Positions 22,472 through 24,356 of a DNA stretch of 64,000 nt are shown here, piece after piece. The DNA is from Agriterribacter humi (GTDB lineage: Bacteria; Bacteroidota; Bacteroidia; Chitinophagales; Chitinophagaceae). The position numbers and the translations under genes were made by a program. The notes below the pieces were generated by a model. That model saw only the letters and a program-made list of their open reading frames with translations. It made no database searches and was not told where the DNA came from. Numbering within the stretch: position 1 is the first letter of the stretch; the number at the start of each line of letters is the position of its first letter. The stretch is taken from contig NZ_VOHQ01000004.1 in NCBI RefSeq assembly GCF_009192765.1, positions 124,001 through 188,000 of the forward strand, in the 5' to 3' direction.

Positions 22472-22701
22472 GGATAATTAGGTGGGATGGGTTGGGGAGT
22501 GATATCTCTTACGCAAGTCCCTTTAAATGCCAGAATACTTCCACCCTATCCTTTGGGCAATCCATCATCAATTGCGGGATGACTATTTATTATATTGCTA
22601 TTCGCTTTGCTCATTAGAATTGTTACAGTATAGGTGAGTAACACTCGCCCGAACGCCAGATCACGTCCGACTGTTGTCATCTGGGAGGGCAGAAGATTCA
22701 T

Positions 22702-22763
22702 CCGGGCGGCCCGTCCGAACGGCGTTCAACCCCGCCTGAATGGCTCAGTCGGGCAGGCGGGCA
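22702..22763. repeat. two GC-rich palindromic units next to a tRNA-Arg remnant
   Basis: A unit with the core CCGTCCGAACGGCGTTCAAC (about 22711-22730) is followed by a second one ending CTCAGTCGGGCAGGCGGG (to 22761). Both resemble the 28-base inserts at 23117-23144 and 23555-23582 and the hemF insert at 46014. The 300 bases before it (22439-22701) hold no gene. Confidence 0.65.
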
Positions 22764-23014
22764 GACATTGTTCTACGAGGTAGTATTCTTTTTAAATATC
22801 GTCTTCCGGCAGCAGACTTATAGTATTTTTCTCTTTTTATTGCTTCCTGTTTCGTTTCAAACGCTTCAAAATAGATTAATGCGAAAGGAATATAAGGCCG
22901 GATTGATTCTGTCATTCCTGAATTGTGCTGGTGTAATCTTTTTTCAAGATCCTGGCAATGACCCTTGTAATAATAGCCATGCTCAATACTTTTTAACACA
23001 TAAGCATAAAACAT
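22745..23014 (-). CDS. GIY-YIG nuclease family protein, copy A
   Basis: An 89-residue single-domain GIY-YIG protein: MFYAYVLKSIEHGYYYKGH, then DLEKRLHQHNSGMTESIRPY and AIKREKYYKSAAGRRYLKRI with the conserved Arg and Glu. The GIY and YIG triads are degenerate (YAYVLKS and YYKGH), as in many small Bacteroidota members; nuclease activity is unproven. The last ten residues (RRTMSARLPD) come from reading through a tRNA-Arg remnant and a palindrome, so the ancestral protein probably ended near ILP. Flanked by tRNA-Arg fragments and 380 bases from a second copy. Confidence 0.8.
   Translation of the reverse strand: MFYAYVLKSIEHGYYYKGHCQDLEKRLHQHNSGMTESIRPYIPFALIYFEAFETKQEAIKREKYYKSAAGRRYLKRILPRRTMSARLPD
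22766..22780 (-). pseudogene. tRNA-Arg remnant 1 (5' end only)
   Basis: The plus-strand bases cattgttctacgagg match the 5' acceptor/D-arm end of the intact tRNA-Arg (cattgtactacgagg) with one change. The rest of the gene is replaced by palindromic units. It sits at the same place relative to GIY-YIG copy A as remnant 2 does to copy B. Confidence 0.6.
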
Positions 23015-23052
23015 AGGAAAAGCGGTAGTGTGGCCTCGCCAGGAATCGAACC

Positions 23053-23082
23053 CCCGCCCGTACCGAACGGCGTTCGGGCGGG
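23053..23082. repeat. GC-rich palindrome inserted in the T-arm of tRNA-Arg copy 2
   Basis: A 30-base unit with outer arms CCCGCCCG and CGGGCGGG and an inner CCGAACGG. The bases on either side rejoin perfectly to the T-arm of the intact tRNA. Confidence 0.8.
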
Positions 23083-23116
23083 TGGATCTGGAGCTTCGGA
23101 AACTCTTATACTATCC

Positions 23117-23144
23117 CCGTCCGAACGGTGCTCAACCGGGGGGG
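23117..23144. repeat. GC-rich palindrome inserted in the D-loop of tRNA-Arg copy 2
   Basis: A 28-base unit beginning CCGTCCGAACGG and ending in a G-run, inserted between tatcc and cat of the D-loop. The insertion point is identical in the fragment at 23532-23599. Confidence 0.8.
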
Positions 23145-23151
23145 CATCGCA

Positions 23152-23391
23152 CTACGAGGGCAGTACTTTTTTTAAATATCGTCTTCCGGCAGCAGACTTA
23201 TAGTATTTTTCTCTTTTTATTGCTTCCGGCTCTGTTTCAAACGCTTCAAAATAGATTAATGTGAGAGGAATATAAGGCCGGATTGATTCTGTCATTCCTG
23301 AATTGTGCTGGTGTAATCTTTTTTCAAGATCCCGATGGCCCTTATAATAGTAGTCATGCTCAATACTTTTTAACACATAAGCATAAAACAT
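23152..23391 (-). CDS. GIY-YIG nuclease family protein, copy B
   Basis: A 79-residue near-duplicate of copy A (MFYAYVLKSIEHDYYYKGHR, then DLEKRLHQHNSGMTESIRPY). One codon is lost where A has Cys-Gln (B has Arg), but the frame is kept. Its stop codon is the TAG of the D-stem region of tRNA-Arg copy 2, so the protein ends VLPS. Several substitutions (Phe-Ala to Leu-Thr, Lys-Gln to Glu-Pro) are spread along the gene. The preserved frame suggests either recent duplication or selection. It lies 16 bases downstream of the 3' end of the intact tRNA-Arg. Confidence 0.8.
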   Translation of the reverse strand: MFYAYVLKSIEHDYYYKGHRDLEKRLHQHNSGMTESIRPYIPLTLIYFEAFETEPEAIKREKYYKSAAGRRYLKKVLPS

Positions 23392-23407
23392 GGGAAAAGC
23401 GGTAGCG

Positions 23408-23479
23408 TGGCCTCGCCAGGAATCGAACCTGGATCTGGAGCTTCGGAAACTCTTATACTATCCATTGTACTACGAGGCC
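23408..23479 (-). tRNA. tRNA-Arg (anticodon CCG)
   Basis: A complete 72-base cloverleaf: acceptor GGCCTCG/CGAGGCC with discriminator A at 23408, D-stem GTAC/GTAT, anticodon loop TTCCGAA (anticodon CCG, reading CGG), and T-arm CCAGG-TTCGATT-CCTGG. The anticodon stem has one A-C mismatch at its outer pair and one T-G pair. CCA is not encoded. It is the only intact member of four related copies within 840 bases. Confidence 0.93.
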
Positions 23480-23531
23480 AAGAACTAATTTATACTATTC
23501 GAACCTATAGCCTTTTACGTCAGCCGGGACG

Positions 23532-23599
23532 TCTCGGAAACTCTTATACTATCCCCGTCAGAACGGCGTTCAGTCGGGCGGGCATTGTACTACTAGCCC
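23532..23599 (-). pseudogene. tRNA-Arg remnant 4 (5' half with D-loop insert)
   Basis: From the anticodon loop to the acceptor 5' end this matches the intact tRNA (tcggaaactcttatactatcc, then cattgtactac), but a 28-base palindrome occupies the D-loop and the 3' half is missing. Confidence 0.75.
23555..23582. repeat. GC-rich palindrome in the D-loop of tRNA-Arg remnant 4
   Basis: A 28-base unit, CCGTCAGAACGG at the left and TTCAGTCGGGCGGG at the right, at exactly the same D-loop position as in copy 2. Confidence 0.8.
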
Positions 23600-23654: not shown

Positions 23655-24233
23655 TTACTTAATCAACCCATGTGCATTTTCCGCAAATATTTTTACGGCA
23701 ATGGCGAGCAAAATTACACCAAAAAACTTACGCACCGCAATTAATCCGGCACTACCCAACAAACGGGCTATGAAATTAAGCGATCGCAATACCACATATA
23801 TCACAATAAGATTGATAAAAATACCCAGGAATATGGTAAGGTCATGAAAATTGGCCTTAAGCGATACAATGGTAGTGAGTGTTCCGGAACCCGCAATGAG
23901 CGGAAAAGCAATAGGGACCAGCGTAGCCGCTTTTACATCTTTTTCACTTTTAAAAAACTCCAGTCCCAGCACCATCTCCAATCCCAGTATAAAAATGACC
24001 ACCGAACCGGCTACGGCAAATGTTTTAATGTCTAACCCCAGAATTTGCAGAAATTCCTCTCCTGCAAATAAAAATAAGATCATTAATGCACCTGAAATGA
24101 GCGTGGCTCTGAATTCATTTATGCCACCCATTTTTTGCTTGATTGAAATCAGTATAGGTACCGACCCTATAATATCAATCACCGCAAAAAGGGTAAATAT
24201 AACCGTTACCAGTTCATTAAGGCTAAATGGCAT
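23655..24233 (-). CDS. MarC family integral membrane protein
   Basis: A 192-residue protein with six predicted membrane segments; MPFSLNELVTVIFTLFAVID, IDIIGSVPILISI and PIAFPLIAGSGTLTTIVSL are the MarC signature parts. The ATG at 24233 starts the family sequence; 15 further upstream residues in frame are not family-like. The family (UPF0056) has no confirmed function, and its supposed link to multiple antibiotic resistance has been withdrawn for E. coli MarC. Inner membrane. Confidence 0.88.
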   Translation of the reverse strand: MPFSLNELVTVIFTLFAVIDIIGSVPILISIKQKMGGINEFRATLISGALMILFLFAGEEFLQILGLDIKTFAVAGSVVIFILGLEMVLGLEFFKSEKDVKAATLVPIAFPLIAGSGTLTTIVSLKANFHDLTIFLGIFINLIVIYVVLRSLNFIARLLGSAGLIAVRKFFGVILLAIAVKIFAENAHGLIK

Positions 24234-24356
24234 AGTTGCGGGTTTATGCAAAGGTATTGTTCCCGGGAGACAGGTCACCGGAATAATGCTAAAAGTATTT
24301 GTTCAGTCCCGGAATAATGATTATTGCCCCTGCGACTTCCACAACTCACCATTTAC

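Follow-up and report, generated by a model that had tools for sequence, protein, structure and literature searches.

The sequence under study lies in a 64,000-nucleotide stretch of Agriterribacter humi DNA, here called the window, which belongs to contig 29 of a genome (G000) assembled as 34 contigs with a total of 5.69 Mb. Between positions 22700 and 23600, the recognised genes are two GIY-YIG nuclease genes and one tRNA gene. Read along the minus strand, the array runs from an upstream broken tRNA copy through an intact tRNA-Arg(CCG), GIY-YIG gene 2, a middle broken copy and gene 1 to a 5' tRNA fragment:

23498..23599, minus strand: broken tRNA-Arg copy upstream of the intact gene; its D loop holds a palindromic insert of 29 nt (23554-23582), and its 3' end is gone
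23407..23479, minus strand: intact tRNA-Arg(CCG), called by ARAGORN and matched to Rfam RF00005 at 61.4 bits
23152..23391, minus strand: GIY-YIG gene 2, 79 aa, PF01541 E 2e-10
23030..23161, minus strand: middle broken tRNA-Arg copy, with two palindromic inserts, one in the D loop (23116-23144) and one before the T arm (23054-23082)
22745..23014, minus strand: GIY-YIG gene 1, 89 aa, PF01541 E 3.9e-14
22766..22780, minus strand: 5' tRNA-Arg fragment, about tRNA nt 3-17, recognised from the sequence, with palindromic sequence then continuing down to about 22700

Gene 2 starts 15 nt after the intact tRNA, and its stop codon, TAG, sits within sequence resembling the start of the next tRNA copy. The 3' end of gene 1 passes through the short 5' tRNA fragment. 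A preliminary description of this DNA had proposed two near-identical GIY-YIG genes in a unit of about 380 bases, with reading frames kept despite the broken tRNA copies. Both points hold. The two genes match PF01541 (53.1 and 41.2 bits, cut-off 22.6), the proteins are 89% identical, the DNA is 85.5% identical over 345 nt, the repeat spacing is 380 and 377 nt, and both frames are open. The same description counted four copies of tRNA-Arg(CCG), one intact and three broken. The intact copy and two long broken copies are as described, but the third broken copy is a short 5' fragment only.

The damage to the tRNA copies is not random, as it consists of GC-rich imperfect palindromes of about 29 nt. 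The two long broken copies share their D-loop insertion point, and judging from this shared point, they probably descend from one disabled ancestor copy. In the middle copy, tRNA nt 18-50, with the anticodon arm, and nt 51-73 are unchanged with respect to the intact gene. Therefore, a disabling insert is not always found in that arm. A scan of the whole window for perfect GC-rich hairpins of 8 pairs gave none (0 to 2 in ten Markov controls), which means that the inserts in the array are imperfect palindromes. The exact palindrome of the window, CCGAACGCCGTTC, occurs as a single copy in its own genome and is not a dispersed family there.

We compared the syntenic site in 12 genomes of the genus. 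All 12 have tRNA-Arg(CCG), and the site carries 0, 1 or 2 nuclease genes. It is empty in G003, G004, G007 and one of two G010 loci; it has one GIY-YIG gene in G005, G006 and G008 and two in the window; and it has an apparently decayed gene in G001. G002, G009, G011 and the other G010 locus have broken tRNA copies without a GIY-YIG gene. The window's upstream neighbour (23655-24278), presumably a MarC-like gene from our reading of its sequence, is found at 12 of 13 loci, the exception being the G011 locus. The number of array copies is thus not fixed among these genomes, in keeping with the cassette proposed in the preliminary description. For each isoacceptor with a linked gene in the genus, between 1 and 5 of the 12 genomes showed such a gene, with absence from the site verified for Arg-CCG only. 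The intact tRNA of the array does not differ in sequence from the one at the empty G007 site. Therefore, if the tRNA is the target, the working copy carries no protective change. One G010 locus (L131, G010:C9:73139-74144) has about seven tandem pseudo-tRNA-Arg copies, in a unit of ~132 nt, upstream of tRNA-Arg(CCG) and no GIY-YIG gene nearby. The second tRNA-Arg(CCG) locus of G010 (L140) has the same neighbour gene and no copies, and is possibly MAG contamination.

The link between GIY-YIG genes and tRNA genes reaches far beyond Arg(CCG). A PF01541 search of 19 genomes, the 12 of the genus and thus G000 included, gave 123 matches. We set aside 38, namely 36 UvrC-size or fused frames (at least 446 aa) and two of 53 aa, and followed the remaining 85, of which three or so are longer multi-domain frames. 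G000 itself has 13 matches, flanked by tRNA-Ala, Pro, Phe and Asn genes and by decayed tRNA copies. All ARAGORN tRNAs within 1 kb of the 85 loci are on the same strand, and they belong to many isotypes. With a cleaned tRNA library, same-strand tRNA sequence was found within 250 nt of 53 of the 85 loci in this genus and order set, and opposite-strand sequence only at one. Of the UvrC-size or fused loci, 36 were seen and five were checked; none of the five had tRNA sequence nearby. As a measure of chance, five of up to 400 random 745-nt windows from the 64-kb window, those touching the array or tRNA-Ser being skipped, had any tRNA-like match, all on the minus strand.

A second search, of named genomes with a tRNA-Leu-linked protein as the query, gave 80 loci. 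Their titles include Pontibacter, Algoriphagus, Echinicola, Mucilaginibacter, Chitinophaga, Sphingobacterium, Barnesiella, Neomarinimicrobiota, Melioribacteraceae and Patescibacteria. ARAGORN called a tRNA within 200 nt at 56 of the 80, at least one of which (L216) has a tRNA-Stop call only. Same-strand tRNA sequence lay within 250 nt of all 80 named loci and of 29 of 29 order loci with a first tRNA library, which included two long ARAGORN calls that were spurious; once the library was filtered, 93 of the 100 named and order rows in the tree still had a label. L209, one of the seven rows that lost it, sits by eye in a tRNA-Ala array. Merging the 85 loci with 76 named ones, after removal of four duplicates, gave 161 loci, still including L176, a second record of one G003 locus. 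An intact tRNA lies within 150 nt of 77 of these, and the near tRNAs number 79 on the same strand and 0 on the opposite strand. At E 1e-8, such GIY-YIG genes occur in 95 of 149 genomes of the order Chitinophagales. The tRNA-bound set is apparently mostly Bacteroidota with some Patescibacteria. Therefore, the proposal that a tRNA gene serves as the site of the cassette is well supported, and homologous genes, far from lacking the association, include a large branch tied to tRNA genes.

These results dispose of a plain tandem duplication that by chance took in a tRNA and a GIY-YIG gene. The repeat anatomy of the window alone would permit such an event. However, GIY-YIG genes are paired in this way with over a dozen tRNA species, in many genera and, by titles, in several phyla, and the pairing is nearly absent from two other kinds of GIY-YIG gene, the UvrC-size or fused loci (0 of 5) and a control clade described below (1 of 18). 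We reject this explanation as hardly credible.

Several contig ends of G000 (C5, C11, C13, C14, C18 and C33) fall inside tRNA/GIY-YIG or pseudo-tRNA arrays, and true array sizes may therefore exceed the assembled ones. Ends in this genome cut a Met and an Arg(TCT) array, and the end of contig 18 shares a 105-nt overlap with the start of contig 13, within tRNA-Met plus GIY-YIG.

We built a tree of 175 proteins from 82 columns, which has many weak forks. Rows with a stop or shorter than 55 aa were omitted, as were seven duplicate rows, and 140 rows carry a tRNA label. The isoacceptor labels change 45 times on this tree, compared with a mean of 93 and a minimum of 85 in 500 shuffles. When labels were shuffled only within genomes, the count was 13 compared with 31.8 and a minimum of 24 in 1000 shuffles. 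The Met, Val/Ile, Asn and Arg groups and several Ala groups span genus or family borders; Ala, Asp, Met and Arg-TCT labels occur in more than one part of the tree. The control clade of GIY-YIG proteins, with 'ITNK' or 'LTNFT' near the start, has a tRNA label in 1 of 18 rows, and a weak one. That row, G009_C8_83223, has no ARAGORN tRNA within 1 kb.

The tRNA-bound GIY-YIG genes are under purifying selection: dN/dS is 0 to 0.31 in the 15 pairs, out of 18, that yielded a value, several of which have saturated dS. Between species, the identity of a cassette mostly equals that of its flanks. Two cases hint at recent transfer. A Val cassette is 97% identical compared with 90 and 86%, and an Asp cassette is 96% identical over 950 nt compared with 72% at the Arg locus, one of the two genomes being a MAG of 88% completeness and 5% contamination. 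In a Magasanikbacteria GIY-YIG frame (L240:1500-1760), an internal TGA stands where relatives have Trp, reflecting either decay or a recoded stop.

At 65 of the 77 loci with an intact tRNA, the nuclease gene is flanked on its far side by another copy of that tRNA, a damaged one, compared with 61 of 325 when a tRNA of another amino acid was matched to the same flank. Right-hand copies have lost the 5' end in 52 of 55 cases and kept the 3' end in 47 of 55. Left-hand copies are the mirror image, with the 5' end kept in 10 of 10 and the 3' end lost in 9 of 10. The second copy has therefore usually lost the acceptor strand that faces the nuclease gene. At many loci, the nuclease frame ends within tRNA-derived sequence, and at some (Val, one Ala, one Asn and one Phe) a repeat of the terminator belonging to the tRNA follows the second copy. 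At L275 (G069:C31), two full-length copies of tRNA-Val enclose a GIY-YIG gene; this is perhaps a recent insertion in which the second copy has not yet decayed.

Many second copies contain a hairpin. A perfect GC hairpin of at least 6 pairs is present inside 39 of 65 second copies; the figure is 9 of 77 for the intact tRNAs and 1 of 65 for gene stretches of equal length. The count of 39 covers the copy body only and replaces one of 56 of 65 that took in 25 nt of flank, some of those hairpins being terminators. We mapped 49 of 65 hairpins, in a set that includes terminators and other flank hairpins. The anticodon arm holds 23 of the 49, and 14 of these replace it exactly, with boundaries at tRNA nt 27|45 (28|46 in two tRNAs). 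Elsewhere, hairpins occupy the D loop (in the two Arg types of the genus), the variable region or the T loop, and terminators account for some of the 49. Hairpins in Bacteroidota often resemble YCCCGAnnGCnnTCGGGR, and a nnnGCCCNAGGCnnn hairpin is present at 6 of 7 Patescibacteria loci. The complete genome of Chitinophaga sp. E66 carries a tRNA-Ala, six tandem hairpin units, a nuclease gene and one further unit; therefore, such arrays are not only metagenome artefacts.

Two loci of G000 have tandem copies and no GIY-YIG gene. At L019 (G000:C12:670530-670807), three tandem 96-nt pseudo-tRNA-Thr copies come after tRNA-Thr(GGT); a GC hairpin forms their anticodon arm, and ARAGORN calls two of the three tRNA-Stop(TTA). 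The gene shortly after them we take to be tuf. At L167 (G000:C1:529879-530290), three tandem broken copies precede tRNA-Arg(ACG), each with the D-loop hairpin CCTGCCTGCCGGTAGGCAGG.

Two further explanations have been considered. In the first, the protein would be an isoacceptor-specific tRNA nuclease acting on RNA, and the hairpin-bearing copy would be a decoy, guide or antidote RNA. The isoacceptor lineages, the same-strand placement of near tRNAs and the replaced anticodon arm in 23 of 49 mapped hairpins are consistent with this. Yet a decoy should keep the anticodon arm that is recognised, which is often the part replaced, and most copies have lost one acceptor strand. Moreover, all GIY-YIG enzymes known to us act on DNA, and we regard an RNA-acting enzyme as improbable. 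In the second, the array would guard tRNA genes against integrating elements, with the disabled copy as a decoy attachment site and the nuclease attacking integration intermediates. tRNA genes are common integration sites, the anticodon arm is a usual core site, and disabled copies do flank the gene. We nevertheless consider a guard function very improbable.

Hairpins of a similar kind are also found away from tRNA genes. TCCCG-N-CGGGA hairpins were considered as plain genome background and ruled out by their rarity, with 1 in the window. They occupy 70 places compared with 16 for the reversed pattern in G000, and 104 compared with 25 in G007. The 18-nt palindrome TCCCGANNGCNNTCGGGA occurs in 35 of 149 Chitinophagales genomes, 29 of the 95 with such GIY-YIG genes and 6 of the 54 without. 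It thus co-occurs weakly with the tRNA-bound genes (Fisher p 0.0085; 167 copies compared with 7; Spearman 0.33), in statistics that ignore kinship. Of 34 sampled TCCCGANNGCNNTCGGGA copies, 5 are near tRNA-like sequence, so most are dispersed. Some Chitinophagales genomes carry dispersed copies of an 18-nt palindrome, usually TCCCGATAGCTATCGGGA, as at L285 and other loci among L281-L310 (42 copies in G155); its co-occurrence with tRNA-bound GIY-YIG genes is weak, and most of its sampled copies are away from tRNAs. One such palindrome (L293:1480-1540) precedes AGGAAAGTCCG, which we take to resemble an RNase P RNA motif.

The protein is a single-domain UPF0213/Slx1-like GIY-YIG enzyme, closer to these families than to I-TevI or UvrC. 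Among 76 sequences, Y16, G18, R26, H30, E62 and K66 are invariant and Y5 is conserved in at least 90%, and these are residues of the catalytic type. The AlphaFold (AF2) model has a confident fold (pLDDT 89.2). A PDB search with a profile of the 76 relatives found UPF0213 (1zg2, E 1.6e-13), then SLX1 (7cq2, 2e-7) and I-TevI (0.016). Foldseek with the AlphaFold model gave the same order, with only 1zg2 below E 0.001. There is no DNA-binding module beyond the catalytic domain, and none of five proteins matched an NCBIfam family above its cut-off.

This resemblance leads to the main rival, in which a structure-specific enzyme maintains or remodels tRNA repeats. An Slx1-like enzyme, host-kept or half-domesticated, would, at tRNA genes, act on forks, cruciforms or intermediates of recombination and thereby set tRNA copy number. 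Its lineages would follow isoacceptors through joint duplication and inheritance and not through tRNA recognition. The nearest solved structures are UPF0213 and SLX1, with I-TevI far behind; hairpins would be natural branched substrates; and, in the excerpts of the GIY-YIG superfamily survey (PMC1564403), Slx1 keeps rDNA copy number. The mostly vertical identity of the cassettes and the tandem hairpin copies without a nuclease gene are also consistent with such an enzyme. However, the genes are patchy among close relatives (1 to 5 of 12 genomes), which is odd for a host maintenance gene, and the extra tRNA copies are disabled, so the working tRNA dosage does not rise. We consider this explanation possible, and on the unlikely side.

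We suggest instead that the array is a chromosomal homing-like cassette on a tRNA gene, one that duplicates its target tRNA and does not split it. In our estimate, the case for and against this reading is evenly balanced. From the association with tRNA genes, the anatomy, the selection and the variation in copy number, we infer cleavage and movement as follows. The nuclease would break the gene of its cognate tRNA, or a branched structure arising at that gene. A cassette-bearing chromosome would then serve as the repair template via the two tRNA copies, installing the nuclease gene and keeping one working tRNA. In this scenario, a break in an empty tRNA, repaired via the left and right copies, would leave exactly a tRNA, a nuclease gene and a disabled copy. 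Because of its hairpin, the second copy may be poorly targeted or inactive as a gene, and recombination between tRNA copies could make tandem units grow and shrink. Duplicating an essential tRNA gene would avoid the cost of breaking it.

The self-duplicating cassette of the preliminary description therefore stands as regards the tRNA gene as its site, and stays a hypothesis as regards self-duplication or homing by the protein. Several observations count against homing: the intact tRNA is unchanged, identity is mostly vertical and mostly follows the flanks, and hairpin copies occur without a GIY-YIG gene (Thr-GGT and Arg-ACG, and at Arg-CCG in G002, G009, G010 and G011). Also against it, some tRNA labels recur in separate parts of the tree, the protein lacks a DNA-binding module beyond its catalytic domain, and the middle copy of the window has an undamaged anticodon arm. 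There is also no obvious vehicle, since searches of phage, plasmid and viral collections gave no close relatives, only few weak matches or none. Four Listeria phage matches were weak (E about 5e-4), and two viral_contigs scans, which detect close relatives only, gave no relative.

A broader form of the homing reading takes in the hairpin. Here, an Slx1-like GIY-YIG gene and a hairpin-marked pseudo-tRNA would form a mobile unit in several phyla, the hairpin being a cis element that the nuclease reads or makes, with dispersed relatives moved by the same enzymes, in a kind of homing by target duplication. We think this version rather unlikely. If true, it would be a natural 'cut and replace' of essential tRNA genes.

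To our knowledge, Bacteroidota commonly have small GIY-YIG genes, which are so far unexplained. A large branch of them that is bound to tRNA genes and sorted by isoacceptor gives these genes a testable biology. If the homing reading is correct, a nuclease gene has a further way to live in an essential gene, by means of a spare copy of the target and not as an intron or intein. It would place a mechanism like the amplification by phage SegB in chromosomes, and it could account for the arrays of tandem tRNA pseudogenes in these genomes and for some of the breaks in their assemblies.

Among the titles of the open-access literature, we found no earlier report of this GIY-YIG/tRNA association. The UPF0213 or prokaryotic Slx1-like proteins, such as YazA and YhbQ (COG2827), have the same single GIY-YIG domain and fold, with 1zg2 and 1ywl as the nearest solved structures; we know of no tRNA link for them. 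In the excerpts of PMC1564403, the three mentions of 'tRNA' do not concern neighbouring tRNA genes.

Intron-encoded homing endonucleases include nucleases at home in a tRNA gene, as here, and two relatives match the NCBIfam family grpIintron_endo weakly, below its cut-off. Unlike the targets of those enzymes, the intact tRNA is uninterrupted, and its site is kept working by duplication and not by splicing. An Rfam scan of the window and nine loci of G000 gave tRNA only and no intron family at the gathering threshold.

REP/RAYT and Rickettsia palindromic elements are short dispersed palindromes, some of them inside RNA genes, and the type of palindrome found here in tRNA copies is also dispersed. 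Unlike REP/RAYT, the array has no Y1 transposase, and palindrome and nuclease share one place.

The nearest system described in the sources as excerpted is SegB of phages T4 and T6. According to the excerpts of PMC13096335, SegB is a free-standing GIY-YIG homing endonuclease that cuts inside tRNA genes and drives tandem amplification of the tRNA and its own gene, with many isotypes involved. In both systems, as far as those excerpts describe SegB, a GIY-YIG gene adjoins tRNA genes, and a match to the SegB motif RAWTSGAAC can be seen by eye in the window's tRNA, within its T arm (plus strand, 23420-23428). SegB is phage-borne in that account, whereas the genes here are chromosomal, and searches of phage and viral collections gave no close relative. 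Also unlike SegB as excerpted, the proteins here are single-domain (79 and 89 aa in the window), their lineages are largely sorted by isoacceptor, and the second tRNA copy is disabled and often bears a hairpin.
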